Source: Rhodoblastus sp. (GTDB lineage Bacteria; Pseudomonadota; Alphaproteobacteria; Rhizobiales; Beijerinckiaceae). Taken from it: 33,453 nucleotides of DNA. Shown here one piece after another: positions 2,738 to 31,275 of this stretch. The stretch lies in contig JAGRKN010000195.1 in assembly GCA_020442275.1 (NCBI GenBank), forward strand, positions 578 through 34,030, written 5' to 3'. Position numbers and translations under genes: made by a program. How positions within the stretch are numbered: the stretch's first letter is position 1; each line of letters begins with the position of its first letter. The notes under the pieces were generated by a model that saw only the letters and a list, made by a program, of their open reading frames with translations, made no database searches and was not told where the DNA came from.

Positions 2738-2749
2738 CGGAGGACGCCT

Positions 2750-3706: not shown

Positions 3707-3709
3707 CCG

Positions 3710-4669: not shown

Positions 4670-4673
4670 CGCT

Positions 4674-7201: not shown

Positions 7202-7205
7202 GGGT

Positions 7206-8871: not shown

Positions 8872-8889
8872 AACGCTCTCCTGCTAGGT

Positions 8890-9750: not shown

Positions 9751-10108
9751 GTATCGTCCTCACTTCACACGTCTCGTGAAGCAAGGAAAACATCTAGACA
9801 TCGAACAGCCAAACGGGAATTGGCCGTAGGCATGCGGTTTGGTTTCCGCGATAGAGGCAATTCTAACGATATGCGATCGGTCACATTTCCAAGCCGCGCA
9901 AACCCGGGGTTCTTGACGCGCTTGTCTCTCTACACGCCAGAGTTTCCGACCTCATCTTGCTTAACCGTAAAGGTTGCCACTCCATGAAAACGACGATCGA
10001 AATATGCTCTAAATATTTAGAAACATTCGAACATTTGGATCGACGATTTCTCAGCACGTCTTGCCGCAATATCAGAATGACGGCCTGAGACATTAACTCA
10101 ACACGGCA
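9751..10108. promoter_or_regulatory. Divergent intergenic region between cpaB and the tadE-like gene, with AT-rich palindrome
   Basis: A 358-base stretch without a convincing gene, clearly richer in A+T than its neighbours, separating the two halves of the pilus locus; it should hold both promoters. It contains the perfect 12-base palindrome CTAAATATTTAG at 10009-10020, a direct repeat of ACATT in AACATTCGAACATT just after it, and TTAACCGTAAAGGTT at 9961-9975 (AACC/GGTT arms). TTAACC is one half of the CtrA-type TTAA-N7-TTAA box, but the second half here reads GGTT. A TTGACG at 9913-9918 could be a -35 element, though I find no matching -10. None of these sites is proven, and no Flp pilin reading frame is visible here. 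Confidence 0.5.
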
Positions 10109-10657
10109 ATGCAAACGACGATCGCCTCGAAGACACGATCTTCAGCAGAGACAGATGAGCGACACGCGCGGTCGTCGTCCTTGGCGCCCAAGACGTTCGC
10201 CAGCAGACTTCTTCTCGCTTTAACGCAATGTCTGAAGGACAGATCGGGCGTCGCCGCGGTCGAGTTTGCCCTCGTCGCGCCGCTGCTCCTCGGCATCGCG
10301 CTCGCCGCGCTCATATTCGCACTCGCGCTCAACAATTACATACTCGTGACCAATGGGTCTTCGGCCGGCGTCGCCAACCTGATTCTCAGTCGCGGTTCGT
10401 CGACGCCCTATACCGACACCGTTGCGGCGGTTCGACAGGCGGCTCAAGGACTCGTCTCCAACAATCTGACCGTCGCCATGTCGGTCGACGGCGCGGCCTG
10501 TGCCGATGACGCCGCCTGCGCCACGGCGCTGAGCGCGGCCGGCGGAAAGTCGGCGAGCGTCGCAGTGAGCTATCCCTGCCGGCTGGTCGTTCTCGACATC
10601 GACTATGCGCCGGGAAGTTGCGTTCTAAAACAGACAACAGCGGGGCGCGTGCAATGA
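10109..10657 (+). CDS. tadE: TadE-like pseudopilin / pilus assembly protein
   Basis: A 182-residue protein with the TadE signature: a basic N-terminus, then DRSGVAAVEFALVAPLLLGI with the key glutamate in VEF, followed by a single long hydrophobic helix and a periplasmic domain with four cysteines in the C-terminal half. TadE proteins are pseudopilins cleaved by the prepilin peptidase before the AVEF-type segment and act in pilus assembly. The ATG at 10109 has no good ribosome binding site; I see no better ATG before the conserved segment, so up to 45 N-terminal residues are uncertain. The stop overlaps the next start as ATGA. It is transcribed divergently from cpaB. Confidence 0.87.
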   Translation: MQTTIASKTRSSAETDERHARSSSLAPKTFASRLLLALTQCLKDRSGVAAVEFALVAPLLLGIALAALIFALALNNYILVTNGSSAGVANLILSRGSSTPYTDTVAAVRQAAQGLVSNNLTVAMSVDGAACADDAACATALSAAGGKSASVAVSYPCRLVVLDIDYAPGSCVLKQTTAGRVQ

Positions 10658-11958
10658 AGAAGAGAGCGTTTCATGGACTGCGGGCCTTCGCCGAGGACAG
10701 GACGGGCTCGATCGCCGTCGTCGGCGCGATCGTCGCGAGCGTCATCACCGGGTCGGGCGCGCTCGCCGTGCAGCAGGCGCTGGTGCTGAGAACCGAGCGC
10801 GCCCTGCAGGCGTCTACCGACATGGCCGCCCTCGCGGGCGCACAGGACCTCAACGACAGCACGGATGCGGCGATCGCGACAGCGACGAGCTATGCCGCCA
10901 AGAATCCTGTCGCGGGACAGACGGTCACCGCCGTCAGCGGCTATCCGAAGGCGGTATGTCTGAGCAGCACGAACATCGCTTGCGGCTCGATCGGGGCGAA
11001 TGCGATCGTCGTCAAACAGCAGATCGTCATGCCGCTGGTGTTCGGCAAGTATTTCGGCTTCGCGTCGAAGACCATGGTGGCGACGGCGACGGCCAGCGCC
11101 CAAGGCGGCGCGGGCAAGGCGGTCGACGTCATGTTCGTGCTCGACACGACGCGCTCCATGACCAATACGGACGCGCGCTGCAGCATCAGCGGCGCGACAC
11201 GGCTCGGTTGCGCGGAAGCCGGCGTGCGGAAATTGCTGCTCGCCGCCAATCCGTCGCTCGTGCAGGCGGGCCTCTCGATCTTTCCGCCGGTCAAGACCGC
11301 GACGGATGCAGCGCGCGAATATGCCTGCTCCGGCGCCGCGCCAGCCATCGCAAAATACAATGCGACCGCGCCCGTCTACACGATCCTCGGCCTCTCCAAC
11401 GATTACAAGTCGTCGGTCGGCGCGACGACGCTCAACAGCGCCTCCAACATTGTTCGCGCCGTCGGCGGCGTATCCGGCTGCACCGGTCTCCAGGCGATCG
11501 GCGGCGTCGGAACCTATTTCGCGGATGCCATTTCGGCGGCGCAGGCCGAGTTGCAGGCGCGTGGCCGGCCAGAGGCGCGGAAGGTCATCGTATTCCTCAG
11601 CGACGGCGACGCCGGCGCCTCTTCGAGCAATGTCGGTTCGAGCAAGTATTCGAACCAGTGCCACCAAGGCATAGCCGCGGCGCAGGCTGCGGCGGCCGCC
11701 GGGATTTCTGTTTATTCCGCCGCCTATGGCGCAGCCAATTCTGGCGGCTGCTCGACCGACAATCCGGCCATTTCACCCTGCGCGACCATGCAGCAGATCG
11801 CGACCTCCGCGGACAAATTCTTCCCGGATTCCGGCGCGAGCAGCGTATCGTGCACGTCGACCGTCAACACAGCGACCGACATCATCGGCATTTTCACGGC
11901 GATCGGCGCGAGCCTGTCGTCATCCGCGCCGCGTCTGATTCTCAATTCCACGAGCTAG
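10654..11958 (+). CDS. tadG: TadG-like pilus assembly protein with von Willebrand factor A domain
   Basis: A 434-residue protein. The N-terminus (EDRTGSIAVVGAIVASVITG) has one hydrophobic segment in the style of TadE/TadG proteins, followed by RALQASTDMAALAGAQDL, which is conserved in TadG. A vWA domain begins near residue 160 with VDVMFVLDTTRSMTN, giving an intact MIDAS motif (D-x-T-x-S), and continues with VIVFLSDGDAGASSS. Several cysteines suggest periplasmic disulfides. TadG-type vWA proteins are anchored in the inner membrane and are thought to work in pilus assembly or as minor surface components. The ATG at 10654 overlaps the tadE stop by four bases; an upstream in-frame ATG at 10618 lies inside tadE and is less likely. 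Confidence 0.9.
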   Translation: MKKRAFHGLRAFAEDRTGSIAVVGAIVASVITGSGALAVQQALVLRTERALQASTDMAALAGAQDLNDSTDAAIATATSYAAKNPVAGQTVTAVSGYPKAVCLSSTNIACGSIGANAIVVKQQIVMPLVFGKYFGFASKTMVATATASAQGGAGKAVDVMFVLDTTRSMTNTDARCSISGATRLGCAEAGVRKLLLAANPSLVQAGLSIFPPVKTATDAAREYACSGAAPAIAKYNATAPVYTILGLSNDYKSSVGATTLNSASNIVRAVGGVSGCTGLQAIGGVGTYFADAISAAQAELQARGRPEARKVIVFLSDGDAGASSSNVGSSKYSNQCHQGIAAAQAAAAAGISVYSAAYGAANSGGCSTDNPAISPCATMQQIATSADKFFPDSGASSVSCTSTVNTATDIIGIFTAIGASLSSSAPRLILNSTS

Positions 11959-11968
11959 GAGCGCGCAG

Positions 11969-12727
11969 ATGACGCCATTGGATCTCTGGCCCGGCTTCGC
12001 TCACACGATCGTCCGCTTCATCGGGAGACAGGCGCTCGATCTCCGCACCGCACGGGATCGAGCGCGCGCCGCGCATGCGCCCCTCGTGCGAAAGCCCTCG
12101 CGGCGTGTCGTCGCTGAATTGTCGAACACGCTCGTCGTCTCGCCGATCGTTCTCGGTCTGGCGGTTCTTGCGGCCAATCCGTGGCCCGACCGGGCGAGCG
12201 CGCCGGCGCCGGCGGCGTCGGCGCGGGCTTTCGGCGCTCTCGCCAGCCTCACCGGCGAGGAAATCGGCGCAGCGCTCGCCCGCGCCCGGCAGGGCGCAAA
12301 GCTCGAGGAGCGCGCGCCGGCAATCAGGATCAGCGCGCCGCCCCATTCCGATGTGGCGAGCCTCGCACCCGCCGAACCGCCGGAACCGCCGAGAGTGTTT
12401 CAAGCGCGCGCCGGGCAAGCCACCGTCGGAGACGACGGCAACCTGATCGTCGACGGCGAGAAGGTCCGGCTGGAAGGCATCGTTCTGCCGGACGCCGATG
12501 CGGCGTGTCGGCGCCTCGACGGCGTCGAGGTGCGTTGCCTCGAGCGGGTGGCGGCGCGCCTGTCGATCATCGCGCAACAGGGACGCCTGCACTGTCGCAC
12601 CTCGATCGACGCCACGGGCGATCGCGTCGGACGCTGCACGGTCGGCAAGATCGACCTGGCGCAGGACCTCCTGCACGCGCATCTGGCCCGCCGGGCGCGC
12701 GCAAAGCCGGACGGCCAGGGCGCCTGA
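11969..12727 (+). CDS. Membrane-anchored protein with degenerate thermonuclease (SNase)-like domain
   Basis: A 252-residue protein, third in the tadE-tadG operon (10-base gap, AGGAG before the ATG). A likely membrane segment lies at 54-70 (TLVVSPIVLGLAVLAAN), then an Ala/Pro-rich linker to about 145. Residues 150-240 follow the SNase pattern: DGNLIVDGEKVRLEGIVLPD, ACRRL...VRCLERVAARLSI, then GDRVGRCTVGKIDLAQDLLH. The family core RLxGIDAPE is RLEGIVLPD here, so the metal-binding aspartate has become valine and the catalytic glutamate aspartate; the arginines of RL and GR remain. Nuclease activity is therefore doubtful. It may be a periplasmic binding module of the pilus machine. The family assignment comes from motif reading and is moderately sure. 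Confidence 0.65.
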   Translation: MTPLDLWPGFAHTIVRFIGRQALDLRTARDRARAAHAPLVRKPSRRVVAELSNTLVVSPIVLGLAVLAANPWPDRASAPAPAASARAFGALASLTGEEIGAALARARQGAKLEERAPAIRISAPPHSDVASLAPAEPPEPPRVFQARAGQATVGDDGNLIVDGEKVRLEGIVLPDADAACRRLDGVEVRCLERVAARLSIIAQQGRLHCRTSIDATGDRVGRCTVGKIDLAQDLLHAHLARRARAKPDGQGA

Positions 12728-12784
12728 CGTCGATTGTTTGCGGACTTTCGCAATCACCCTGACGAGAGGCGCGCCCGCGCCCTC

Positions 12785-12803
12785 GGCGGACACACGGTCC
12801 GCC
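12785..12803 (+). terminator. Hairpin downstream of the tadE-tadG operon (candidate terminator)
   Basis: GGCGGAC-ACACG-GTCCGCC is a perfect 7-base stem with a 5-base loop, 58 bases after the SNase-like gene ends. There is no following U-tract, so intrinsic termination is only possible, not shown. Confidence 0.35.
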
Positions 12804-12878
12804 CCGGGAACGGTCCTCGTGACAGCCGTCGGGGAGAGCAGGCTTGAAGTTCTCGGCGCCGGCGTCCAGTGTGACGAG

Positions 12879-13178
12879 ATGTCTGAACAGCTCGTCAAAT
12901 ACCAGACGGCCGAAGGCGTCGCCGAAATTCTGCTGGACCGCGCACCCGTCAATGCGTTGAGCCGGCAGGTCATCGATCAGCTTCTGGCGGCGTTGCAGCG
13001 CGCGCGGGACGATACGAAAGTCCACGCCGTCATTGTCGCCAGCGCCCAGAAGGTCTTTTGCGCGGGGCTCGATCTCGACATTATCGATCTGCCGGGCGTC
13101 CTGCGACGCCCGGTCAAGAAATCTCTGGAGGAAACATGCGCGCAGCCGTTCTTTATGAGCCGAACAAGCCGCTGGTGA
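12879..13178 (+). pseudogene. Truncated enoyl-CoA hydratase/isomerase (crotonase) remnant
   Basis: The frame from the ATG at 12879 encodes the first ~70 residues of a crotonase-fold protein: VKYQTAEGVAEILLDRAPVN, ALSRQVIDQLLAALQRA and VIVASAQKVFCAGLDLDII, including the first oxyanion-hole loop (C-A-G-L-D-L). Homology stops at about 13090. The frame then runs through a hairpin and into the start of the alcohol dehydrogenase gene in another frame, ending at 13178 after 99 residues. A whole crotonase is about 260 residues, so roughly three quarters, including the second oxyanion loop and the catalytic glutamate, are missing. I read it as a deletion remnant at the junction between the pilus locus and the catabolic genes. 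A translated short protein cannot be excluded, but it could not be a working hydratase. Confidence 0.8.
13092..13113 (+). terminator. Strong GC hairpin before the alcohol dehydrogenase gene
   Basis: CCGGGCGTC-CTGC-GACGCCCGG is a perfect 9-base stem with a 4-base loop, located where crotonase homology ends and 22 bases before the dehydrogenase ATG. No U-tract follows (TCAAGAAATC). It may be the former terminator of an upstream unit or an mRNA 5' stabiliser for the downstream operon. Confidence 0.5.
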
Positions 13179-17644: not shown

Positions 17645-17885
17645 CGCTTGCCATCGAATTGCATTTGAGCAACCGCCGACGCGCGATGTTGCATGCGAAC
17701 AGTCAGACATTCCCAAGCTGGCGATGCTCCCGCCGGCGATCCGCGTCGGATTTCGGCCGATTGTGACAAACTTTGCCCATGGCCGCTTTCGGCGGCTTCG
17801 CGGCGATCAATTCTGAAAGCGCGTGCGCAAATTGTCGCCGCGCATCCCGGCGGCAAGTATCGGCGCCATGTCGCGGCGCGGCAGG

Positions 17886-18983
17886 CTACAAGCGCGCGAC
17901 GCGCTCCCGGAGGCGATCGAGCGCCGCATTTGTTTCGGCGGTCAATCGCTCAAATATTTCGGCGACCGTGGTCTGCTCGCCGAACCAGGCGACGCTCTGA
18001 CCGGCCGCCTCATAGACCAACGCCTCGACCTGATGCTCTTCGATGGCGGCCAGAAGTTCGCCCGTCAGCGCATGCTGGTAGGGCATGGGCAGGGCGTCGG
18101 GCGCAGCGGGCGCCGCCCATTCGTCCGTCCATGCGCTGCGCACGACCCGGCAGGATTTGCCGCTGTGAGCGCGCGTCAGCACCGTGTCTTCGGCGCCCGC
18201 GCGCAGAAGCCGTTCCAGGAGTTTCGGCGGCGTGTGGTTTTCGCGCGCGGCGAGCCAGGCAGTGCCGAGCCAGACGCCTTGCGCGCCCATGGCGAGGGAG
18301 GCTGCGATCTGGCGGCCGCTGCCGACGCCGCCGGCAACCAGAACCGGAATGTCGCCAGCCGCGTCGATCACCTGAGCGGACAGCGTGAACGTGCCGATCG
18401 GGCCGGTATGGCCGCCGGCGTCATACCCCTGCGCGACCAGGAAATCGGCGCCGGCCCTTTTTGCCGCAGCCACGTGGCGCACGGAGCCAACGAGAGCAAA
18501 AGTCGCTTTGCCACGCGTCTTTGCCGCCGCGACGACTTCCGGCGGCAGGCCGACGGCGGTGGCGATAGCGTCTGCGTCGGAGGCCAGGACCGCCTCGGTT
18601 TGTGCGCGGATCAGCGCGGAGTTTCGAATCTCGCTCGAGAAGAAGTTGGGACGCGTCGCGGGCGGCACATTATATTTGGCGCGAATGCCGTCGACGAAGG
18701 CCTTGTGCTGATCGGAAATCTTCGCGCGGGCCGAGGGAAGATCGGGCTCTTCGCCGGCGAGCTTGGGATACATGACGTCGACCGCGAACGGCCGCGATCC
18801 GAGTCTTGCCCGGATCGCGGCTATTTCGCGTTCGATATGTTCCGGGGTTTCGCGCGCGACGCCGAAGATCGGATAGCCGCCGCAATCGGAAATCGCGGCG
18901 ACAACATCGGGCGAATGCGAGAAGCCGAAGATCGGCGTCGCGATCCCCAGCCGATCGCAGATCGGCGTTCGAAAGCCCGGCAT
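17886..18983 (-). CDS. NAD(P)H-dependent flavin oxidoreductase, nitronate monooxygenase-like
   Basis: A 365-residue FMN-dependent TIM-barrel protein of the nitronate monooxygenase / FabK-like family. Motifs seen are PICDRLGIATPIFGFS at the start, FLVAQGYDAGGHTGPIGTF with the active-site histidine, IPVLVAGGVGSGRQIAASL and MGAQGVWLGTAWLAA, which bind the FMN phosphate. The middle region with VGSVRHVAAAKRAGAD is also typical. Members range from true nitronate oxidases to NADH:quinone reductases and 2-enoyl reductases, and the sequence does not decide which. AGGGG precedes its ATG. It lies 9 bases after the TctC-like gene, so the two share an mRNA with the IclR gene. Its link to a carboxylate transporter suggests a role in the same catabolic pathway rather than nitroalkane detoxification; that is inference. 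Confidence 0.9.
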   Translation of the reverse strand: MPGFRTPICDRLGIATPIFGFSHSPDVVAAISDCGGYPIFGVARETPEHIEREIAAIRARLGSRPFAVDVMYPKLAGEEPDLPSARAKISDQHKAFVDGIRAKYNVPPATRPNFFSSEIRNSALIRAQTEAVLASDADAIATAVGLPPEVVAAAKTRGKATFALVGSVRHVAAAKRAGADFLVAQGYDAGGHTGPIGTFTLSAQVIDAAGDIPVLVAGGVGSGRQIAASLAMGAQGVWLGTAWLAARENHTPPKLLERLLRAGAEDTVLTRAHSGKSCRVVRSAWTDEWAAPAAPDALPMPYQHALTGELLAAIEEHQVEALVYEAAGQSVAWFGEQTTVAEIFERLTAETNAALDRLRERVARL

Positions 18984-18992
18984 CGATCGCCC

Positions 18993-19964
18993 CTATTGCT
19001 GCTTGACGCCCGACGCCTTGACGACCGCCGTCAGCCTCTCGTGATCTTCCTTCATCAGCCCGGCGAGCGCTTCGAGCGACATGGGCTTGCCCGGAATGTC
19101 GGCGCGCGACAGGCGCTCGATCACGTCAGGCGCGGCCAGCGCCTTGTTGATCGCTTCGTTGATGCTCTTGAGCACCGGCTCCGGCGTCTTGGCTGGCGCA
19201 TAGATGCCGTACAGGGGCGTATAGGCCGCGCCGGGATAGCCGGCCTCCGCGATCGTCGGCGTATCCGGCAGCGTCTTGACCCGGTCCTGCGTGAAAACCG
19301 CGAGCGGGACGATCGCGCCGCTCTTGATCTGCGGCATGGCCAGCGCCAGCGAAACGATTTCGAACTGCACCTGATTGCTCATGAGGTCGAGCAGCGCCGG
19401 CGGCTGTCCCTTGTAGCCGACATTGGTGAGCTTGATGTCCGCAGCCGCGAACAGGTTGCGCGCGGTCAGGTCGATCGACGAGCCGACGCCGGGATTGCCG
19501 AAATTGAGTTGCCCGGGCTTCGACTTCGCGAGATCGATGAACTGCTTCATCGTCGTGACGCCAAGCGCCTTCGGCACGACCGCGACGCTCTGGTTCCAGA
19601 CCGCGACGCCCACGCATTTGAAATCGCGGATCGGGTCCCAGGCGGCGTCCTTGTAGAACGTCGGATTGACCAGCAACGCCGGGCCCGTGATGATCCATGT
19701 GTAGCCGTCTGGCGCGCTGCGCGCGGCGAGCGCGGTCCCGATGTCGCTGTTGGCGCCGGGCTTGGCCTCGACAATGATCGACTGGTTCCAGTCGCGGCTG
19801 ATGCGATCGGTGAGGGTGCGGCCGACGAGATCGACGATGCCGCCGGCGGGATAGGGCACGATCAGATGGATCGGCCGCGACGGAAAATTCTCCGCCGCGA
19901 GCGCGGCTCCGCTTGCGAGTATGATGGCGGCCGCGGCGGCGACGCCGGCAAATTTCCTGAACAT
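18993..19964 (-). CDS. tctC: Tripartite tricarboxylate transporter substrate-binding protein (TctC/Bug family)
   Basis: A 323-residue periplasmic binding protein of the Bug family. Signal peptide residues 1-23 end ALA before AENF. The family start PSRPIHLIVPYPAGGIVDLV and the segments IIVEAKPGANSDIGTALAAR and PDGYTWIITGPALLVNP are characteristic; the loops bind a carboxylate through two waters in known structures. A strong GGGAGGAGC site precedes the ATG. Its membrane partners TctB and TctA are encoded on the opposite strand at 22265-24228, so the complete transporter flanks the divergent promoter. The ligand is a carboxylic acid of unknown identity and may be the pathway substrate. Confidence 0.93.
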   Translation of the reverse strand: MFRKFAGVAAAAAIILASGAALAAENFPSRPIHLIVPYPAGGIVDLVGRTLTDRISRDWNQSIIVEAKPGANSDIGTALAARSAPDGYTWIITGPALLVNPTFYKDAAWDPIRDFKCVGVAVWNQSVAVVPKALGVTTMKQFIDLAKSKPGQLNFGNPGVGSSIDLTARNLFAAADIKLTNVGYKGQPPALLDLMSNQVQFEIVSLALAMPQIKSGAIVPLAVFTQDRVKTLPDTPTIAEAGYPGAAYTPLYGIYAPAKTPEPVLKSINEAINKALAAPDVIERLSRADIPGKPMSLEALAGLMKEDHERLTAVVKASGVKQQ

Positions 19965-20021
19965 GTTGCTCCTCCCTCTTTGCGACGCTTTCCAGCGCCT
20001 TCTGCGTTTCCGAAGCAGCCG

Positions 20022-20837
20022 TCAGCTTTTCATGGACGCCCGGATCGCATTGGCCAGTCCCAGCATGCGCGGCCCGCATTCGGTTTCGATCTGTTCCGGG
20101 CTGAACCGAAACGCCGGAATGCCGCAATTGACCGCGACGCATTCGCCGCTGGCCGTCCGGAACAGCGGCGCGGCGACGCCGAAAATTTCCGGCCGCCATT
20201 CGCCAATCGACATCGCAAAACCTCTGACGCGGCACTTCTCGAGTTCCGGGAGCGTTCGAGCCTGCACGTGTTCGCTTTCGTGCGGCCGCTCGCGCTGCGT
20301 CCGCGCGACATAGGCGCCCAGTTCGTCGTCCGTGTAGAGCGACAGGAGCGCGCGGCCTGCCGCGGCCTGCGACAGCGGCGCGGTGAACCCGATGTCGGGC
20401 AGGTGCGGAATGGAATCCGCCATGCGCACGGTCTCGATATAGATGTAGTCGAGGCCGAAGGGCATGGCGAGCGAGACCGTGCCGCCGGCGTAGGCCGCAT
20501 AGTCGCGCATGTAGGGGCGCGCGAGCCGCCGGATCTGCAGGCTCGCCAGCAAAGGATAGGCGGTCGCCAGCACGCGCAGGCCGAGCCCGAACTTGCCCTT
20601 CGCACTGCGGCGCAGATAGCCGAGTTCCGTCAGCGTGTGGGAGAGCCGCGTGACGGTCGGCCGCGACAGGCCGACGCGCGCCGCCATCTCCGCATTGGAC
20701 AATTGCTCCTCGCCAGCTCGGAAGGCCGCGAGCAGATCGAGGCCATTCGCCAGCGTGGTCGCGAAATTGGGGTCGAACGCGCGGTCGGCGCTAGGTGGCG
20801 CGTGGCGCGGAGAGGAAGCGACAGGGGAGTTCACCAC
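20022..20837 (-). CDS. IclR-family transcriptional regulator
   Basis: A DNA-binding regulator of about 271 residues. The winged helix-turn-helix is LANGLDLLAAFRAGEEQLSN, then AEMAARVGLSRPTVTRLSHT. The effector domain follows with MRDYAAYAGGTVSLAMPFGL, RMADSIPHLPDIGFTAPLSQ, AAAGRALLSLY and SIGEWRPEIFGVAAPLF, the normal IclR order. The start is uncertain. A TTG at 20870 opens the frame, but the 33 bases between it and the GTG pair at 20837/20834 are AT-rich with codons unlike the rest, and TTGACA there looks like a -35 box, so I prefer the GTG. The gene heads the minus-strand unit with tctC and the flavin oxidoreductase and faces the acyl-CoA dehydrogenase gene; it probably controls both directions and itself. 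Confidence 0.92.
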   Translation of the reverse strand: MVNSPVASSPRHAPPSADRAFDPNFATTLANGLDLLAAFRAGEEQLSNAEMAARVGLSRPTVTRLSHTLTELGYLRRSAKGKFGLGLRVLATAYPLLASLQIRRLARPYMRDYAAYAGGTVSLAMPFGLDYIYIETVRMADSIPHLPDIGFTAPLSQAAAGRALLSLYTDDELGAYVARTQRERPHESEHVQARTLPELEKCRVRGFAMSIGEWRPEIFGVAAPLFRTASGECVAVNCGIPAFRFSPEQIETECGPRMLGLANAIRASMKS

Positions 20838-20941
20838 CAGATTTTGCGAAATTTTGCGCAGTTTTGTCAAGATATCAAAACAAATATTGCAAAAATGACC
20901 GACATATGATGTCCTCCGGAAAACGACAGGGAAACGCCGGG
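20838..20941. promoter_or_regulatory. Divergent promoter/operator between the IclR gene and the acyl-CoA dehydrogenase gene
   Basis: A short AT-rich region between divergent genes. GTTTTG at 20861-20866 and CAAAAC at 20876-20881 form a perfect 6-base inverted repeat with a 9-base spacer, the right scale for an IclR operator. Reads of TTTTGCG at 20842-20848 and TTTTGCGC at 20853-20860 give further related half-sites, and TTGCAAAA at 20887-20894 is the opposite orientation. On the minus strand TTGACA (20870-20865) with CAAAAT (20846-20841) at 18-base spacing is a fair promoter for the regulator unit. On the plus strand TATGAT at 20905-20910 could be a -10 without a good -35. Confidence 0.5.
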
Positions 20942-22183
20942 ATGGATTTCGAGATGACGCCGCGCGCCGTGGAATGGCGCGATCGGCTGTGGTCTTTCTT
21001 CAATCGCGAGGTACTGCCGCGTCACCGTGAGTGGACGCGCCACGTCGTCGAGCTCGGCGAACCCGCGCCCTTCATGCCGGCGTTGCAGGCAAAAGCGCGT
21101 GCGGAAGGTCTGTGGAATCTCGGTCTGCCCGAACTGGCCGACGACGAGCCGGGCACGCGCCTCACCAATCTCGAATATGCGCCGCTGGCCGAAATTCTCG
21201 GCCGCCTGTTCTGGGCGCCGGAAGTCTTCAACTGCCAGGCGCCCGACGTGCCGAACATGATCGCGCTGCAGAACTGCGCGAACGCGCGGCAGAAAAAGAC
21301 ATGGCTCGCGCCATCGCTCAATGGCGAGATGCGCTCCGCCTTCGGCATGACGGAGCCCGACGTCGCCTCCTCGGATGCGACCAATGTCGCGACGACCATC
21401 CGTCGCGACGGCGGCGACTATGTCATTCGCGGCCGCAAATGGTTCATCACCGGCGCCGCCCACCCGAACTGCAAGTTCCTGATCGTGCTCGGCGTGACCA
21501 ATCCGGACGCCGAGCGCACGCGCCGCCAGTCCTGCGTGATCGTGCCGATGGACGCGCCGGGCGTGCGGCTCGTGCGGCCGCTACGCTGGATGGGCTGCAT
21601 AGATCACGTCGCGCCGATCGGCGAACTCGAATTCGACGACGTGCGCGTGCCGCAGGAAAATCTGATCGGCGCGGAAGGCGACGGCTTCAAGGTCGCGCAG
21701 GTGCGGCTCGGGCCCGCGCGCGTGCACCATTGCATGCGCTCGATCGGGCTTTGCGAATTGCTGATCGAGCTGATGATGGCGCGGGCCGCCGAGCGCAAGG
21801 CGTTTGGGCGCATGATCAACGAATACGACACGGTGCAGCGCTGGATCGCGGAGTCGCGGGTCGAGCTCGAACAGGCGCGCCTGCTGACCTATCGCTGCGC
21901 CTGGGCGCTCGATCGGGCCGGCCACCACGGCGCGTGGCGCGACGTGTCGATCATCAAGGTCGCCGTGCCCGCCATGCTGCAGCGGATCGCCGATCGGGCG
22001 CTGCAGGTGTTCGGCGCCATGGGCGGCTCGGACGATGCGCCGATCCATCAGGCGCTCGCCTGGGGGCGTCTGCTGCGCATCGGCGACGGTCCGGACGAAG
22101 TCCACCTGCGCCAGATCTACAAGATGGAGCAGCCGCCGAACTGGACGATTGCGACATCGCCCTATCTCGCGCGGCGCGCGTGA
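20942..22183 (+). CDS. Acyl-CoA dehydrogenase of the ACAD10/11 type
   Basis: A 413-residue acyl-CoA dehydrogenase-fold flavoprotein of a different branch from the one at 14319. The signature GMTEPDVASSDATNVATTIR (residues 135-154) and C-terminal GDGPDEVHLRQI (381-392) are those I associate with ACAD10, ACAD11 and LvaC-like proteins. YVIRGRKWFITGAAHPNCKF and the helix ALQVFGAMGGSDDAPIHQAL are also typical. In ACAD10/11 the dehydrogenase domain is fused to an APH-type kinase and removes a phosphate from a 4-phosphoacyl-CoA; here the kinase is encoded separately at 25436, three genes downstream. I place the start at the ATG at 20942; in-frame ATGs at 20906 and 20909 are alternatives. It is the first gene of the plus-strand unit opposite the IclR regulator. 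Confidence 0.93.
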   Translation: MDFEMTPRAVEWRDRLWSFFNREVLPRHREWTRHVVELGEPAPFMPALQAKARAEGLWNLGLPELADDEPGTRLTNLEYAPLAEILGRLFWAPEVFNCQAPDVPNMIALQNCANARQKKTWLAPSLNGEMRSAFGMTEPDVASSDATNVATTIRRDGGDYVIRGRKWFITGAAHPNCKFLIVLGVTNPDAERTRRQSCVIVPMDAPGVRLVRPLRWMGCIDHVAPIGELEFDDVRVPQENLIGAEGDGFKVAQVRLGPARVHHCMRSIGLCELLIELMMARAAERKAFGRMINEYDTVQRWIAESRVELEQARLLTYRCAWALDRAGHHGAWRDVSIIKVAVPAMLQRIADRALQVFGAMGGSDDAPIHQALAWGRLLRIGDGPDEVHLRQIYKMEQPPNWTIATSPYLARRA

Positions 22184-22264
22184 GCGCGCAAACATTCTTT
22201 CGCGACGTCGCGCCTTGAGGCGTGCAACAGAACAAGACGCCTGACGAACAGGGCGGAGGAGACC

Positions 22265-22720
22265 ATGACGCGCAGCGAGATACGGATCGATCTCTATGGC
22301 GGCGCCCTCTGCGCGCTGCTCGGCTGCGTGGCGGCCTTCATCGGAACACGCTACGGGCTTGGAACGCCGGCCGACATCGGCCCCGGTCTGTTTCCGACAT
22401 CGGTCGGCATTCTGCTGGCGATTGCCGGCGTGGCGATCGCGGCCCATTCGGCGCGCGACCGGCGCGAGGCCATTGACGCGCCCGACCTGCGCGGCGCGCT
22501 CTGCATCGCCGCCGGCATGGTCGCCTTCGGCATCGTCGGCTCCTACGGCGGTCTGGCGCCCGCGAGTTTCGCGCTCATCCTGATTTCCGCGCTCGGCGAT
22601 CGCGACAACACGCCCGCGCGCGCAGCCCTCCTCGCCATCGCGCTCACCGTCATCGGCGTCGTCGTCTTCTGGTGGGCGCTCAAATTGCAGATGCCGCTGT
22701 TCGCGTGGGGGTGGTCATGA
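22265..22720 (+). CDS. tctB: Tripartite tricarboxylate transporter small membrane subunit TctB
   Basis: A 151-residue inner-membrane protein with four predicted membrane helices: ALCALLGCVAAFIGT, VGILLAIAGVAIAA, IAAGMVAFGIVGSY plus the following ASFALILISALG, and LLAIALTVIGVVVFWWAL. The GLGTPADIGPGLFPTSVG segment between helices 1 and 2 is the usual TctB landmark. GGAGGAGACC before the ATG is a strong ribosome binding site. Its stop overlaps the tctA start as ATGA, so the two subunits are translationally coupled. It works with TctA and with the binding protein encoded divergently at 18993. Confidence 0.92.
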   Translation: MTRSEIRIDLYGGALCALLGCVAAFIGTRYGLGTPADIGPGLFPTSVGILLAIAGVAIAAHSARDRREAIDAPDLRGALCIAAGMVAFGIVGSYGGLAPASFALILISALGDRDNTPARAALLAIALTVIGVVVFWWALKLQMPLFAWGWS

Positions 22721-24228
22721 TCGGCCAGGCGCTCACGGATCTCTGGTCCGGCTTTTCTGTCGCGCTCGCGCCCCACAATCTCATGTGGTCGTTCTTCGGC
22801 GTGCTCGTCGGCAATCTCGTCGGCGTGCTGCCGGGCCTCGGCGCGCTCTCGGCGATCGCCATGTTGATGCCGCTGACCTTCGTCATGCACCCCGTGCCCG
22901 CCACCATGATGCTCGCCGGCATTTTCTACGGCACGATCTACGGCGGCGCGATCGGCGCGATCCTGCTCAACCTCCCCTGCCATCCGCCGCACGCCGTCAC
23001 CTGCATCGACGGCTATCCCATGACCAAACAGGGTCGTGGCGGCGTCGCGCTCGGGATCACGATGATCGCCTCCTTCTTCGCGGCGTCGATCGGCATCATC
23101 CTGATGATCTTCTTCTCGCCCGTGCTGGTGGCTCTCGCCTTCAAGTTCGGACCGGCCGACCTGTTCGCGATCATGCTGCTCGGTCTCGTCGCCGGCTCGA
23201 CCATGAGCGGCGGCACGCCGATCAAGGGCGTGGCGATGACGCTGCTCGGCATGCTCTGCGGCTTTTGCGGCACGGATGTCAGCACCGGCTCAATGCGCTT
23301 CACTTTCGGCTTTCCCGACCTTGCCGACGGCGTGGGGCTCGTCGCGATCTCGATGGGCCTGTTCGGCGTCGCCGATTTCATCGTCAACGTGAACCGCGCG
23401 TCCTTCGTCGCCGGCGGCGCGACGGTGCGTCTGCGCGACATGCGCCCGACGCGGAAGGACCTGAAGGAATCCTTCATGCCGATGCTGCGCGGCACGGCGA
23501 TCGGCTCGCTGTTCGGCGCCATGCCGGGCACGGGGCCGACCGTCACGACCTTCATCGCCTATGCCCTGGAAAAGCGCCTGTCGAAGACGCCCGAGCGTTT
23601 CGGCCAGGGCATGATCGCGGGCGTCGCCAGTCCCGAGGCCTCCGCCCACGCCAAGACGCAGGTCGACTTCATTCCGACGATGTGTCTCGGCATTCCCGGC
23701 GACGCCGTCATGGCGCTGATCATGGGCGCCCTGATCATTCAGGGCGTCGCGCCCGGCCCGCAGCTCATCACGACGCATCCCGATCTCTTCTGGGGCCTCG
23801 TCGCCAGTTTCTGGATCGGCAATGTGCTGCTGGTCATTCTCAACGTGCCGCTCATCAGCGTCTGGGTGCGATTGCTGCAAGTGCCCTATCGCTATCTCTA
23901 TCCCTCCGCGCTCTTCTTCATCGCGGTCGGCGTGCTCTCGACTCACAATTCCCTGTTCCAGGTCTACGAGGTGCTCGCCTTCGGCCTGTTCGGCGCGCTG
24001 CTGCTGACCTTGCGCCTGCCGGTTACGCCCATCCTTCTCGGCTTCGTGCTCGGCCCGATGGTGGAGGAGAATTTCCGACGCGCGATGCAATTGTCGCACG
24101 GCGATCTCACGATCTTCCTGTCGCGCCCGATCAGCGCCACATTCGTCGTCCTGTGCTTCGCGCTGATCGTTTTTCAGCTCTGGCCGAAGCGACAATTCCA
24201 GGCCTTCAATGAAGGGGTCGATGCGTGA
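22717..24228 (+). CDS. tctA: Tripartite tricarboxylate transporter large permease subunit TctA
   Basis: A 503-residue permease with about twelve membrane helices, the normal size for TctA. The conserved GVLPGLGALSAIAMLMPLTF loop near residue 40, FYGTIYGGAIGAILLNLP, the mirrored second half with GAMPGTGPTVTTFIAYALEK, and LGFVLGPMVEENFRRAMQLS near the C-terminus are all family hallmarks. It imports a carboxylate with a cation gradient. The ATG at 22717 overlaps tctB by four bases; the earlier in-frame ATG at 22672 lies within tctB. Transporter genes inside the run from the ACAD-like gene to the kinase gene suggest that the imported acid feeds these enzymes. Confidence 0.95.
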   Translation: MIGQALTDLWSGFSVALAPHNLMWSFFGVLVGNLVGVLPGLGALSAIAMLMPLTFVMHPVPATMMLAGIFYGTIYGGAIGAILLNLPCHPPHAVTCIDGYPMTKQGRGGVALGITMIASFFAASIGIILMIFFSPVLVALAFKFGPADLFAIMLLGLVAGSTMSGGTPIKGVAMTLLGMLCGFCGTDVSTGSMRFTFGFPDLADGVGLVAISMGLFGVADFIVNVNRASFVAGGATVRLRDMRPTRKDLKESFMPMLRGTAIGSLFGAMPGTGPTVTTFIAYALEKRLSKTPERFGQGMIAGVASPEASAHAKTQVDFIPTMCLGIPGDAVMALIMGALIIQGVAPGPQLITTHPDLFWGLVASFWIGNVLLVILNVPLISVWVRLLQVPYRYLYPSALFFIAVGVLSTHNSLFQVYEVLAFGLFGALLLTLRLPVTPILLGFVLGPMVEENFRRAMQLSHGDLTIFLSRPISATFVVLCFALIVFQLWPKRQFQAFNEGVDA

Positions 24229-24311
24229 GCGAAAGCGACGCCTCGTCGGATCCTGCGGCCTGCCGCGACAATCGACGAACAAAAACTCAATAAGCCGCCG
24301 GGAGAGACGCA

Positions 24312-25436
24312 ATGCTGTCGCGCTTTGACGATTATCCGATCCATCAGACCCCGGAACCGATCCGGCATCCCGCGACAACAGATCGAAACGTCTACGACCG
24401 CTACTGGTTCAACGGCTATTCCGCCGACGGCGCCTATTATTTTGGAATTGCGCTCGGCCTCTATCCGGCGCGACAGGTGATGGATTGCGCATTCAGCGTC
24501 GTATTTCAGGGCAAACAATATTCTTTTCACGCCTCGCGCCGCGCGCCGTCGGACCGTGACGAACTGGAGGTCGGACCGTTCCGGATCGAGGTGGTCAAGC
24601 CCATGCGCGAACTGCGCGTTCGCCTCGCGCCCAACGACACCGGCATATCCTGCGATCTTCTGTTCGAGGCGACCACCGCCTGCATTGAGGAGGAACGCCA
24701 GATCCTGAAGCGCGAGCAGCGCGTGTTCATGGATGCGACCCGCTTCACGCAATTCGGCCGCTGGTCGGGTGAGATAGGCTTTCCCGGCGGCAGCATACAC
24801 GTGCAGCCCGAGACCGCGCTCGCCACGCGTGACCGCTCATGGGGCGTGCGATCGGTCGGCGAGCCCGAAACAGGCGGCGCTCCGGCCAGCGCGGGACCGC
24901 AGATATTCTTTCTCTGGGCGCCGATGATCTGGGACGACCTGTGCACGCATGCCTTCTTTTTCGAGGATGCCAGCGGCCGGCAATTGCACGGCGAGGGCAA
25001 GGTCGCGCCCCGCTATGCAACGCCGGGAGGCGTGCCGGGAACGGAAGACCCGCGCCTTCGCCGCATGGCGGGCGTTGCGCACAAGCTGAATTACGCGCAG
25101 GGAACGAGGCGCGCCGAAAGCGGCGAGATCATCATGCTCGACGAATTCGGCGAACGACACACGATATCCTTCGAACCCATTCTCCGTTTCCAGATGAAAG
25201 GACTCGGCTACCGGCACCAGAAATGGGGTCACGGCGTGTGGCGCGGCGAACTGGCGATGGAAGGCGAGGCGTGGGATTGCAACGCTCTCGATCCGCTCGC
25301 TCTCGACAACGTGCACATCCAGCAACTCGTGCGTGCGCGCTGGGGCGACAGGGGGGGCGTCGGCATCGTCGAACAATTGTGCCTGGGGCCGCACGCCACG
25401 TCGGGCTTCGCCGGCTTCCTAGATGGAGCGCCCTGA
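24312..25436 (+). CDS. Conserved hypothetical protein, possible CrtC/AttH (lipocalin-like) fold
   Basis: A 374-residue soluble protein without signal peptide or membrane segment. I do not recognise a characterised function. It is rich in beta-strand-like sequence with many aromatic residues: VYDRYWFNGYSADGAYYFGI, then FFLWAPMIWDDLCTHAFFF. The motif RDRSWGVR at 173-180 resembles the H-x-W-G type motif of CrtC (carotenoid hydratase) and AttH-like proteins, which have a double lipocalin fold, and I recall similar proteins in catabolic clusters for terpenoids, steroids and alicyclic acids. GGGAGAG precedes the ATG. Its stop overlaps the kinase start (TGATG), so the two proteins are made together. 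A hydratase, isomerase or binding function for a hydrophobic CoA-bound substrate would fit; none is demonstrated. Confidence 0.8.
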   Translation: MLSRFDDYPIHQTPEPIRHPATTDRNVYDRYWFNGYSADGAYYFGIALGLYPARQVMDCAFSVVFQGKQYSFHASRRAPSDRDELEVGPFRIEVVKPMRELRVRLAPNDTGISCDLLFEATTACIEEERQILKREQRVFMDATRFTQFGRWSGEIGFPGGSIHVQPETALATRDRSWGVRSVGEPETGGAPASAGPQIFFLWAPMIWDDLCTHAFFFEDASGRQLHGEGKVAPRYATPGGVPGTEDPRLRRMAGVAHKLNYAQGTRRAESGEIIMLDEFGERHTISFEPILRFQMKGLGYRHQKWGHGVWRGELAMEGEAWDCNALDPLALDNVHIQQLVRARWGDRGGVGIVEQLCLGPHATSGFAGFLDGAP

Positions 25437-26473
25437 TGGGACGCCTCGAAGAAGCCTTGGCGAGCTACCTGACACGACATTTTGGTCATGCCGTGCGCGT
25501 CGAGAGCCTCGACCGCATCCCCGTTGGCGCCTCGCGCGAAACATACCGTTTCGTGATGCGCGCCGATAGGGAAGCGGAACTGACGGCGCGTCGGATGATC
25601 CTGCGTCTCGATCCGCCGACGAGCCTCATCGAAACCGATCGACGGACTGAATATGCGGCGATCCGCGCTTTCCACGGTTCGGACGTTCCAGTTCCCGAAC
25701 TTCTCTTGATAGAGGAGGATCCCGAAGCGCTCGGGGCCTCCTTCATCGTCATGCAGGAAATCGTCGGCGGCGAGGCGGCGCCCTACAGGCTCATAGAGCC
25801 GCCCTACAGAGCCAATCTCGAGACGACCGGACAGCACAAATGGTCGATCCTTGGATCGATCGCGAAAACCGATCCTGCCGCTTGCGGGCTCGACCGCGTC
25901 CTGCCGCCGGTCGCGGCCGAAGACTGCTGGCGCCAGGAGCTGCAGCGCTGGGAAACGATGCTCGACGCCGACGAACTCGAGCCTCAGCCGATACAGCGAG
26001 CCGCGATCCGCTGGATGAAACGCAATCCGCCGCCGCCTGCACAACGCATTTCCGTCGTTCACGGCGACTACCGGACAGGCAATTTGCTCGTGAGCGACAC
26101 GGGCGCGGTCATCGGCGTCCTCGATTGGGAGATGGCGCATCTCGGAGACCCGCTCGAGGATCTCGCCTGGAGCATTAATCGCGTCTGGTGTTTCAGGAAA
26201 GACGAACGTCGCGGCGGCATGCTGCCCAAGGACGAGGCGATCGCAATCTGGGAAAAGTCGAGTGGCTTGGCCGTCGACGCCGATGCGTTGCGCTGGTGGG
26301 AATTGCTGGCCTGCCTCAAGGGCCAGGCGATCTGGATATCCGCGACTAAGGAATATCAGACCGGCGCCACGCACGACCCTTTGATGGCGCTCGCCGGCTG
26401 GATGCAGGTCAACAGCCAGGACCGCGCGACACTCGAACTGATGGGCCGTCTATCGCACGGGATCTCGACATGA
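25436..26473 (+). CDS. Phosphotransferase family (APH-like) kinase, candidate hydroxyacyl-CoA kinase
   Basis: A 345-residue protein kinase-fold enzyme of the APH/ACAD10-11 kinase branch. Visible motifs are the N-lobe ARRMILRLDPP and IVMQEIVGGEA hinge, the catalytic loop VVHGDYRTGNLL (HGD at 209-211, Asn216) and the metal-binding aspartate in VIGVLDWEMAHLGDPLEDLA (Asp230). Antibiotic resistance is unlikely, because the kinase sits between a translationally coupled upstream gene (TGATG) and a coupled downstream gene (ATGA) inside an acyl-CoA operon. In LvaA and in the N-terminal domain of ACAD10/11 such kinases phosphorylate the hydroxyl of a 4-hydroxyacyl-CoA. I infer a similar role here, with the ACAD-type partner at 20942 and the small protein at 26470. 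Confidence 0.9.
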   Translation: MGRLEEALASYLTRHFGHAVRVESLDRIPVGASRETYRFVMRADREAELTARRMILRLDPPTSLIETDRRTEYAAIRAFHGSDVPVPELLLIEEDPEALGASFIVMQEIVGGEAAPYRLIEPPYRANLETTGQHKWSILGSIAKTDPAACGLDRVLPPVAAEDCWRQELQRWETMLDADELEPQPIQRAAIRWMKRNPPPPAQRISVVHGDYRTGNLLVSDTGAVIGVLDWEMAHLGDPLEDLAWSINRVWCFRKDERRGGMLPKDEAIAIWEKSSGLAVDADALRWWELLACLKGQAIWISATKEYQTGATHDPLMALAGWMQVNSQDRATLELMGRLSHGIST

Positions 26474-26916
26474 AGCCCGACGTTTCCGTCTACTTCCGCG
26501 AATTGGTGCGCGCCTTGCGCGAGGACTTCGCGCCCAAGTTGCCGACGGCGTTCGAACAGGGCGCGGCACTCCGCCTCGCCATGTTGTCGCAGGCCGCCTC
26601 CGAGGAATTCGACCGCGCCGCGGCGCGGCGTTTGGAGGAAAACGAGGCGATGCGTAGACTGTTCGAACGCGCGTCGTCGATCGTGAAAACGCCGGATCTG
26701 TTGACGCGCTTGCAAACCGTCGGTTGCCTGCGTGAAGACTCCATCCATGTGAGCGCACTCGATCGCGTCAACCAGACGTTGCGCGATCTCCTCATCGAGC
26801 TGCACGCGCATGTTGAAACGCTCGCCGGGGACGACGCGCGCGCGCTGGAAGCGGACATCTGGTTCGAATTCTCGGCTTCGACCGCGCGGCGAGCCTTGTC
26901 GATCGGGCGCTTTTGA
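26470..26916 (+). CDS. Small helical protein coupled to the kinase, possible LvaB-like partner
   Basis: A 148-residue, mostly alpha-helical soluble protein that I cannot assign with certainty. The N-terminal YFRELVRALREDFAPKLPTA, then LRLAMLSQAASEEFDRAAAR and the later LDRVNQTLRDLLIELHAHVE give a pattern like the small DUF6285/LvaB-type proteins that accompany APH-like kinases, though I cannot run a profile. The start overlaps the kinase stop in an ATGA junction, a strong hint of a stoichiometric complex. LvaB of Pseudomonas putida is needed with LvaA to phosphorylate 4-hydroxyvaleryl-CoA, and this protein has the same position. Positively and negatively charged residues alternate without a catalytic motif, as expected for an accessory subunit. 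Confidence 0.75.
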   Translation: MKPDVSVYFRELVRALREDFAPKLPTAFEQGAALRLAMLSQAASEEFDRAAARRLEENEAMRRLFERASSIVKTPDLLTRLQTVGCLREDSIHVSALDRVNQTLRDLLIELHAHVETLAGDDARALEADIWFEFSASTARRALSIGRF

Positions 26917-26952
26917 AGCGAGTATGGAACCTGCCAGCGTGAGGACTCGCCA

Positions 26953-27390
26953 GTGAATCGACCGCCCCTGCAGTCACACGCGCTTCGTATCCAGACCGGC
27001 GAAGACGATCTGCCCGCCGATCGCTTCAACGATCACGTCAACAACGCGCGCTACTTCCACTTCATCAATCTGACTTTCCAGTCTTGGTACCGGGCGATGG
27101 ACATTCGCGGCGGCGTACCCGGCCAGGCCGCGATGATGGCGCATGTCAGCTACGATTTCAGAGGTGAATTGAAGCCGCCCACAATCGCGGAATGCCGCAT
27201 CGACGTTTCGCGCGTCGGCGTCACGAGTCTGGAGCATGCAATCGAGATTTTCGACCTGGGCTTGGACGGCGACCAGACGCCGAGGTCCGTTGGACGCGGG
27301 CGCGCCGTGCATGTGTGGGTGAACAGGCGCGCAAGCACCAAGATGCCCTGGCCGACCGAAGTCCTGTCCAAATGCTGGCCGGGCAAATAA
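26953..27390 (+). CDS. Hot-dog fold acyl-CoA thioesterase (4HBT type)
   Basis: A 145-residue thioesterase. The 4HBT signature is visible as DRFNDHVNNARYFHFINLTF, where the HVNNARY core caps the long hot-dog helix; the helix continues into QSWYRAMDI. The strands AHVSYDFRGELKPPTIAECR and VGVTSLEHAIEIFDLG complete the fold, which dimerises or tetramerises. It would release a free acid and CoA from a pathway thioester or protect CoA pools. The only plausible start is GTG at 26953 with GAGGA about eight bases upstream. It follows the small protein by 36 bases as last gene of the kinase operon, and its end faces the convergent LysR gene. Confidence 0.88.
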   Translation: MNRPPLQSHALRIQTGEDDLPADRFNDHVNNARYFHFINLTFQSWYRAMDIRGGVPGQAAMMAHVSYDFRGELKPPTIAECRIDVSRVGVTSLEHAIEIFDLGLDGDQTPRSVGRGRAVHVWVNRRASTKMPWPTEVLSKCWPGK

Positions 27391-30090: not shown

Positions 30091-31275
30091 ATGACGCAGC
30101 TCAAAGCCTCCTCGCGCAAACCTCTGGAAGGCCTGCTCGTGGTCTCGCTCGAGCAGGCGGTGGCGGCGCCCTATTGCTCGTCACGGCTGGCGGACGCCGG
30201 CGCGCGCGTCATCAAGATCGAGCGCGCCGAAGGCGATTTCGCGCGCGGCTACGATACGGCCGCAAAGGGATCGTCGAGCTATTTCGTCTGGCTGAACCGC
30301 GGCAAGGAAAGCCTCGTCGCCGACATCAAGAAGCCGGCGGACGCCGCGCTCCTGCACAATATTCTGAAGAAGGCCGACGTGTTCATCCAGAACCTCGCGC
30401 CGGGCGCGGCCGAGCGCGCCGGCCTCGGTTCGGCCGCGTTGCGCGAAGAGAATCCGAAGCTGATCACGGTCGACATTTCGGGCTATGGCCCCGGCAATTC
30501 CTACACGGACATGAAGGCCTACGACCTGCTGGTGCAGGCCGAGAGCGGGCTTGCCGGCGTGACCGGCCATCCCGCGGGCCCCGGCCGCGTCGGCGTCTCG
30601 GTCTGTGACATCGCCTGCGGTATGGCCGCGCATGCCGCGATCCTCGAGGCGCTGATCGCGCGCTCGATCACGGGCAAGGGCTCCGCGATCGAGACCAGCC
30701 TGTTCGCCGGCATGGCCGACTGGATGAACGTGCCGTTGCTCTATTTCGAAGGCACGGGCGTGGAGCCGAAGCGGATGGGGCTCGCCCATCCCTCGATCTG
30801 CCCCTACGGCGCATTCGCGCTGAACGACGGCAGCCTTGTCCTGATCTCGATCCAGAACGAACGGGAATGGGCGAATTTCTGCCGCGTCGTGATGGACGAC
30901 GCCGACCTGCCGAAAATAGCAGGCTACGAGAGCAACAACACCCGCGTCGCCAATCGCGACAAGGTCGACGCCCATGTCGGATCGGCTTTCGCCGCCCTGA
31001 GCCGCGACGAAGCGGAGAAGCGGCTGCGCGAAGCTGGCACGGCCTACGGCTTCGTGAATACGCTCGCCGAACTCGCACGTCATCCGGCATTGCGTCGCGT
31101 CGCGGTCGACACGCCGAATGGCGCCGTCTCGATCGTCGCGCCGCCGACGACGCGCGACGGCGCCATGCCGGAACTCGGTCCGATCCCGAAGATCGGCGAG
31201 CACAGTCGGAACATTCGCGACGAATTCTCGAACTCAAGCGAAGCGCCGGCCGGCGCGATGGAGAGTATGCCATGA
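30091..31275 (+). CDS. CaiB/BaiF family class III CoA-transferase (copy 2)
   Basis: A 394-residue family III CoA-transferase. The start shows LEGLLVVSLEQAVAAPYCSS and RLADAGARVIKIERAEGDF, followed by SYFVWLNRGKESLVADIKKP, FIQNLAPGAAERAGL and ITVDISGYGPGNSY. The catalytic aspartate is in VSVCDIACGMAAHAAILEAL and the glycine-rich GKGSAIETSLFAGMADW follows. Only the family motifs are shared with the copy at 15520, so the two are not a recent duplication; this one resembles the mesaconyl/itaconate-type or formyl-CoA transferase branch more by its shorter insertions, but I cannot name the substrate. It is 4 bases behind the aldehyde dehydrogenase and overlaps the SDR start by four bases, so aldehyde oxidation and CoA transfer are directly linked. 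Confidence 0.94.
   Translation: MTQLKASSRKPLEGLLVVSLEQAVAAPYCSSRLADAGARVIKIERAEGDFARGYDTAAKGSSSYFVWLNRGKESLVADIKKPADAALLHNILKKADVFIQNLAPGAAERAGLGSAALREENPKLITVDISGYGPGNSYTDMKAYDLLVQAESGLAGVTGHPAGPGRVGVSVCDIACGMAAHAAILEALIARSITGKGSAIETSLFAGMADWMNVPLLYFEGTGVEPKRMGLAHPSICPYGAFALNDGSLVLISIQNEREWANFCRVVMDDADLPKIAGYESNNTRVANRDKVDAHVGSAFAALSRDEAEKRLREAGTAYGFVNTLAELARHPALRRVAVDTPNGAVSIVAPPTTRDGAMPELGPIPKIGEHSRNIRDEFSNSSEAPAGAMESMP

Follow-up and report, generated by a model that had tools for sequence, protein, structure and literature searches.

Organisms that break down sterols, terpenoids or branched acids face a difficult step when an unactivated or tertiary hydroxyl group has to be removed without oxygen. 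Sterolibacterium carries out a two-step ATP-dependent dehydration, in which the tertiary alcohol at C25 is first phosphorylated by a kinase and the phosphate is then eliminated by a C-O lyase, a separate enzyme (excerpts of PMC8449060 and PMC11061730). Phosphorylation is also used by LvaA, LvaB and LvaC of Pseudomonas putida and by human ACAD10/11; LvaB, a protein of 12 kDa, bound LvaA in a pulldown and its gene was required (excerpt of PMC6692424), and residues R626, H634, R637 and D753 of ACAD11 are reported to hold and process 4-phosphoacyl-CoA (excerpt of PMC12440821). Both genes of the Rv3168-Rv3169 pair of Mycobacterium tuberculosis were strongly raised in an Rv3167c deletion (excerpt of PMC5340868). 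In this study, we analysed a 33,453-nucleotide stretch of DNA from Rhodoblastus sp. (the window, positions 578-34030 of contig C74 in the draft assembly G000, which has 433 contigs and is 76% complete), together with related loci in other genomes. Three overlapping genes of the window, for a relative of 25-phosphosteroid lyase (25-PSL), an APH-fold kinase and a small helical protein, form the unit discussed here (the trio). We propose, with a probability of about 0.62, that this core of the locus is a three-gene module for ATP-dependent alcohol dehydration. That a hydroxyl is removed through phosphorylation had already been put forward by an earlier reading made without database searches (the sequence-only reading), and stays the best reading of the locus.

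The first gene of the trio (24312-25436, plus strand) lies within the cluster described by the sequence-only reading, which listed its other genes correctly but overlooked this one. Its 374-amino-acid product has no Pfam match, scores 386.3 bits against the NCBIfam model Rv3169_fam (NF053593; cut-off 150, E = 1.2e-115), and in a PDB sequence search at E <= 1 matches solely two entries of 25-PSL, 9fzn (6.7e-47) and 9g4c (2.9e-46). By family membership, as judged from its sequence, the protein belongs to the Rv3169 family and is of the 25-PSL type. In the part that aligns, an Asp of 9fzn is replaced by Asn in 9g4c; it lies within RDRSWGVR, at D176 of 25-PSL, with which D174 of the window protein aligns; D174, R144, S176, W177, G178 and R180 of the latter all have a frequency of 1.0 among 102 aligned sequences. 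The existence of the D-to-N entry suggests that D174/D176 is the catalytic residue.

A first search for the small protein gave matches in six of 99 genomes, four of which were rejected as long frames with no family-profile, kinase or lyase match at E <= 1, presumably shadows of a ribosomal-S1-like gene; the remaining two were the window and Chelatococcus, the latter being locus L072. In a class-level sample of 386 genomes (window included), the small-protein profile hit 18, and lyase, kinase and small protein were contiguous in every one of them; with five further loci from the lyase scan described below (L017, L063, L070, L072 of Chelatococcus reniformis, and L083), the trio is contiguous in 23 of 23 loci. 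It occurs in two gene orders, lyase-kinase-small protein or kinase-small protein-lyase, and its weakest instance, L138, still matches at 1.6e-13 for the kinase and 6.2e-6 for the small protein. Among 297 genomes searched at the order level, three have a lyase-family match that exceeds the cut-off: that of the window, G287, which carries the full trio (L177), and G016 (same genus; L176), where the gene between kinase and lyase weakly resembles the small protein (E = 0.013). A divergent form of the trio lies on a Rhodococcus plasmid (L140), with overlapping genes for a lyase, a phosphotransferase and a 177-amino-acid hypothetical protein in the same order, the last reaching only 16.0 bits with the profile of the small protein and 10.4 bits with that of DUF6285. 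Chance is excluded by the family E-values together with the gene order kept in other genomes, and the conserved unit is lyase, APH kinase and small protein. Its neighbours vary, including a P450 in L063 and L083, a Rieske oxygenase in L083, zinc-binding reductases and ligases; P450s are also annotated in L139 and L140. At L139 (Rhodococcus opacus B4 plasmid pROB02, 447-13119), the neighbours of a lyase relative are an ecdysteroid-kinase-like gene, another phosphotransferase, a phosphoenolpyruvate-utilizing enzyme and a P450, and there is no small protein.

The kinase gene (25436-26473, plus strand, 345 amino acids; Pfam APH 5.4e-36) begins with an ATG that overlaps the TGA stop of the lyase relative, and carries the HGDYRTGN (D211) and DWE (D230) motifs, as had been read from the letters. 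Its PDB matches are 3dxp (2e-17), ACAD11 (6.9e-11), Rv3168 (2.3e-7) and 9fsg (5e-6); we take 9fzn and 9fsg to be proteins of Sterolibacterium denitrificans, and 9fsg to be the 25-hydroxysteroid kinase. An aminoglycoside or macrolide resistance kinase was ruled out, given scores of at most 36 bits against NCBIfam resistance models with cut-offs of at least 205 and the catabolic neighbours. The main kinase tree, drawn without LvaA, has 84 rows after removal of 20 near-duplicate or long-branch rows. In it, the trio kinases, window included, form one clade of 19 rows (support 100/99; 81/54 when the Rhodococcus row is added), the kinases that partner DUF6285 form another of 31 rows (99/95), and these two sets group with the L176 kinase at 97/88, with an inner order that the tree leaves open. 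Ten kinases adjoining ACAD11-type acyl-CoA dehydrogenases (ACADs) cluster with ACAD11 and 3dxp in a separate clade (97/98), and the window kinase is not among them; 14 of 17 kinases from lyase loci that lack the small protein belong to a distant group. The same groups appeared in a 90-row tree of a set without the ACAD-adjacent kinases. The rest of genome G000 holds eight further APH matches, one of them on contig C394 (L213, 9249-11299), where an ACAD11-type dehydrogenase adjoins an APH kinase of the ACAD11-partner clade, apart from the window cluster.

The scan of genome contigs with the lyase yielded the best 80 of 542 confirmed loci, which with the window and L008 make 82, or 81 distinct since L008 is the same as L072. 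On a quick lyase tree, built without bootstrap and carrying a long-branch warning, and with L176 counted among the loci that lack the small protein, the presence of this protein changes six times, at least four of these being forced by starred branches. Because the trio kinases form one clade while the small-protein label changes repeatedly on the lyase tree, kinase and small protein seem to be one cassette that has been joined to different lyases.

The small protein (26470-26916, plus strand, 148 amino acids) overlaps the kinase gene through ATGA and, as read from the letters, is predicted to be helical: the AlphaFold 2 (AF2) model is all-helical with a mean pLDDT (predicted local distance difference test) of 90.2. 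Its proposed likeness to LvaB, which we take to be a member of DUF6285, fared less simply. Searches of Pfam, NCBIfam and PDB sequences gave no match, a direct comparison with the Pfam model of DUF6285 (PF19802) gave none at E <= 10, and the whole G000 assembly had 0 matches to this model at E <= 0.001, so an ordinary DUF6285 protein was rejected. The opposite conclusion, that there is no relation to DUF6285, was rejected as a final answer as well, since it rested on shallow alignments and deeper ones differed. The profile-profile probability rose from 1.7 (6 versus 7 sequences) through 40.9 (23 rows) to 81.5 in hhalign with 26 rows including diverged members (score 36.0, over the N-terminal 64 columns, with single-comparison E-values); against this score, reversed profiles reached 18.3 and 19.6, 60 column permutations at most 14.8, the kinase profile 12.0 and the lyase profile 11.6. 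In a further control with a real score of 28.2, rotations of the DUF6285 columns that spare the N-terminal block scored up to 29.4, as expected, rotations that cut the block 17.5-24.6, reversed profiles 18.1 and 19.3, and permuted ones at most 13.9. Compared by helix positions, both proteins have five predicted helices of similar length and spacing, at 5-23, 27-68, 75-85, 94-115 and 121-140 in the small protein and 7-25, 28-66, 72-84, 95-110 and 112-126 in DUF6285. An APH kinase lies in the flank of all 33 DUF6285 loci (31 distinct places) and a lyase in none of them, and kinase and DUF6285 share a single open frame of 455-495 amino acids in four distinct places (L160, L162, L163 = L165, and L164 = L166), natural fusions that support a role as kinase subunit. 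Despite the negative Pfam searches, the deep profiles, the layout of the helices, the kinase tree and the position of the gene together make the small protein a probable remote relative of DUF6285/LvaB and a probable partner of the kinase.

Taken together, we propose that the APH kinase and the small helical protein, the latter probably acting as kinase partner on the model of LvaB and LvaA, would phosphorylate a hydroxyl of low reactivity, which may be tertiary, on a hydrophobic or isoprenoid-like substrate, and that the 25-PSL relative would then eliminate the phosphate to leave a C=C bond, so that an alcohol would be turned via a phosphoester into an alkene. What the sequences show directly is the order of the genes, the families to which lyase and kinase belong, the intact motifs, the conserved trio and the grouping of the kinase; the reaction, the complex of kinase and small protein and the order of steps are what we infer from them. 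Directly upstream of the closest related trio lies an RPE65-type carotenoid oxygenase gene (L017, 6143-7513; Pfam 1.4e-107), which hints at an isoprenoid substrate, and isoprenoid-like compounds would fit both this neighbour and the 25-PSL relationship. A hydroxylated carboxylate taken up through TctABC would suit the operon; the separate unit that adjoins the module (TctC-IclR-ACAD11-TctBA, CoA-transferases and thioesterase) may feed or consume its substrate, and from the gene neighbourhood TctABC import and CoA transfer are plausible.

Several observations weigh against this proposal. The lyase relative is only distantly homologous to 25-PSL, an APH kinase of any kind is found in the fetched flank of only 37 of the 82 lyase loci (36 of 81 distinct), at some of them kilobases away, and just six of the 81 have the small-protein family, so that most lyase relatives occur without it. 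The DUF6285 link is confined to 64 N-terminal columns, and neither the AF2 model of the small protein nor that of DUF6285 finds a PDB fold match at E <= 0.001. In sequence, the kinase is closer to ACAD11-type kinases than to the 25-hydroxysteroid kinase, and because the known substrates of the former are hydroxyacyl-CoAs, its substrate may be a CoA ester. ACAD11-type enzymes are not always apart from lyases: an HHCMR-type ACAD lies near the lyase in two of the 80 other lyase loci (L053 and L056), five more have a related ACAD with DGPDEVH and without the HHCMR pattern, and in the window itself seven same-strand genes could share a single transcript, all of which speaks against a clean separation of ACAD and trio. 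To our knowledge no biochemistry exists for the trio, and a literature search that covered few subscription journals returned none; it likewise returned no report of a lyase-kinase pair with an LvaB-like third component, nothing naming DUF6285, PF19802 or 'Rv3169 family', and nothing on 25-PSL structures.

The most serious alternative is the arrangement that the sequence-only reading had proposed, a split LvaABC-like route in which the kinase, together with the small protein, would phosphorylate a 4-hydroxyacyl-CoA and removal of the phosphate by the ACAD would yield an enoyl-CoA, with the lyase as an accessory. The ACAD (20942-22183, plus strand) is present with TEPDVASSDATN and GDGPDEVH as described, and counts 413 amino acids from its ATG, with a GTG further up at 20795. 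Its assignment to the ACAD10/11 type holds: it scores 363 bits against ACAD11 (8v3u, 1.7e-107) versus 122 bits against MCAD (medium-chain ACAD; 2.6e-34), and R255, R260, H263, R266 and D382 align with R626, R631, H634, R637 and D753 of mouse ACAD11, which by sequence makes it an ACAD11/LvaC-type enzyme, phosphate-site residues included. The presence of every compared phosphate-site residue speaks for the split route, as do the run of seven same-strand genes at 20942-27390, in which no gap exceeds 84 bp, the CoA-transferases flanking this run, and the clustering of the kinase with DUF6285/LvaB-partner kinases. However, at the 22 other trio loci the fetched flanks, which are short in some cases (5.3 kb at L129, 6.9 kb at L136), contain no ACAD11-type gene and, at E <= 1e-10, neither TctABC nor a window-type thioesterase. 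The closest relatives of the ACAD (L209 and L210, 79% and 78% identical) belong to TctC-IclR-ACAD units, and some 20 kb there contain neither kinase nor lyase nor small protein; in G287, which is one contig of 7.3 Mb, such a unit at 2.16 Mb is unlinked to the trio at 6.06 Mb; a further locus, L211, combines CaiB, TctA and TctC with two ACADs, one of them of the ACAD11 type but lacking the HxMR pattern, and the trio was not found there. TctC-IclR-ACAD is a separately conserved unit. Among 30 order-level ACAD relatives, which include the window, whose kinase and lyase lie more than 1.5 kb off, so that the kinase and lyase counts cover close neighbours, 29 have HxMR, nine have a kinase within 1.5 kb and none a lyase; the motif therefore does not single out kinase-linked ACADs. 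In addition, kinases adjoining ACAD11-type enzymes belong to another clade (97/98), and the split route leaves the strictly conserved lyase without a role. It is the lyase, and not the ACAD, that accompanies kinase and small protein in all 23 loci; the three-gene unit of the sequence-only reading is not supported, and we regard the split LvaABC-like route as unlikely.

It might also be that two phosphorylation-dependent eliminations follow one another, the lyase acting on one alcohol and the ACAD on a different compound, a phosphoacyl-CoA; either a single kinase or a second, unlinked one would serve both. Both types of phospho-eliminating enzyme stand in one same-strand run with intact motifs, and the APH matches elsewhere in the genome, such as that beside the ACAD11-type gene on C394, could supply a second kinase; the combination recurs in no other trio locus within the flanks seen, and the co-location could be recent and incidental, which makes this scheme quite improbable. 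A last possibility is that the 374-amino-acid protein shares the fold of the lyase without being one, for example as a hydratase or a binding protein, and that the kinase product is final, such as a storage or detoxified phosphoester. In its favour, no entries other than those of 25-PSL pointed to a function of the protein in the searches made; it is very hard to square with the invariant residues of the active region, including the Asp replaced in 9g4c, and with the presence of a kinase in the fetched flank at 36 of the 81 distinct lyase loci.

Apart from the trio and the ACAD, the seven-gene run comprises TctB (22265-22720; Pfam 3e-16) and TctA (22717-24228; Pfam 3e-136), the small and large membrane subunits of a tripartite tricarboxylate transporter, whose embedding in the cluster had been noticed in the sequence-only reading, and a final 4HBT-type thioesterase (26953-27390; Pfam 4HBT_2 9.8e-7, 4HBT 2.6e-4), all on the plus strand. 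The minus strand carries the TctC solute receptor (18993-19964; Pfam 2.9e-53) and an IclR-family regulator divergent from the ACAD (20022-20870; Pfam IclR_C 1.9e-17); a 1028-amino-acid open frame antisense to both (17823-20909) was taken as a high-GC shadow and not as a gene. A class III CoA-transferase follows at 30091-31275 on the plus strand (Pfam CoA_transf_3 3.4e-96), with a homologue near the trio of L083 (1.5e-101). Promoter-like sites numbered three, against a mean of 1.0 in shuffles, and two of the three lie on the minus strand where the IclR frame begins (20841-20878); seven terminators were predicted, as in shuffles (mean 6.7). Further upstream, a Tad/Flp pilus-type cluster spans 2249-11958, with a TadE-like protein (10109-10657) matched by Pfam and the other members assigned from their sequences, and a 99-amino-acid start of an enoyl-CoA hydratase, which we take to be of the crotonase family (12879-13178, the end of the open reading frame 12498-13178), appears truncated and ends just within an alcohol dehydrogenase gene at 13136.

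Members of this lyase family are often annotated as hypothetical, as the plasmid matches illustrate, and a conserved cassette of overlapping kinase, helper and lyase genes would make the family accessible to genetics; it would also suggest roles of LvaB-like proteins beyond levulinate and supply candidate enzymes for turning alcohols into alkenes. As a more speculative extension, which we consider doubtful, the LvaB-like subunit would activate alcohol kinases in general, and recombination would have paired it with 25-PSL-type lyases in place of ACADs, in a widespread unnamed system; in this operon, a single imported acid would pass through both eliminating enzymes in turn, which would open a new route, independent of oxygen, for hydroxylated isoprenoid or branched acids.

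Among the described systems, the 25-hydroxysteroid kinase and 25-phosphosteroid lyase of Sterolibacterium denitrificans share with the window the lyase family (9fzn, 6.7e-47) and, in the excerpt of PMC8449060, the phosphorylate-then-eliminate chemistry with a phosphotransferase as kinase. The same excerpt describes the lyase gene as unidentified, with no candidate near the kinase gene, whereas the two genes overlap in the window; moreover, the window kinase is only distantly related to that of Sterolibacterium (9fsg, E = 5e-6), and a third, small protein is present. The Rv3168-Rv3169 operon likewise pairs an APH-type gene with an Rv3169-family gene, the APH-type gene coming first, and a small third gene is unmentioned in the excerpt of PMC5340868, while the window has one; in the kinase trees, Rv3168 forms a long separate branch, unlike the window kinase. 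With LvaA-LvaB-LvaC and human ACAD10/11, the window shares a kinase that groups with DUF6285-partner kinases, a small helical partner whose gene overlaps that of the kinase, and a nearby ACAD with HCMR and the catalytic Asp. It differs in that its small protein fails the DUF6285 model, its kinase falls outside the ACAD11-partner clade, and the conserved partner in its trio is a 25-PSL-type lyase and not an ACAD. The parts of the module are of known kinds, and their combination with an LvaB-like third component would be a variation on known chemistry that was absent from the literature searched.

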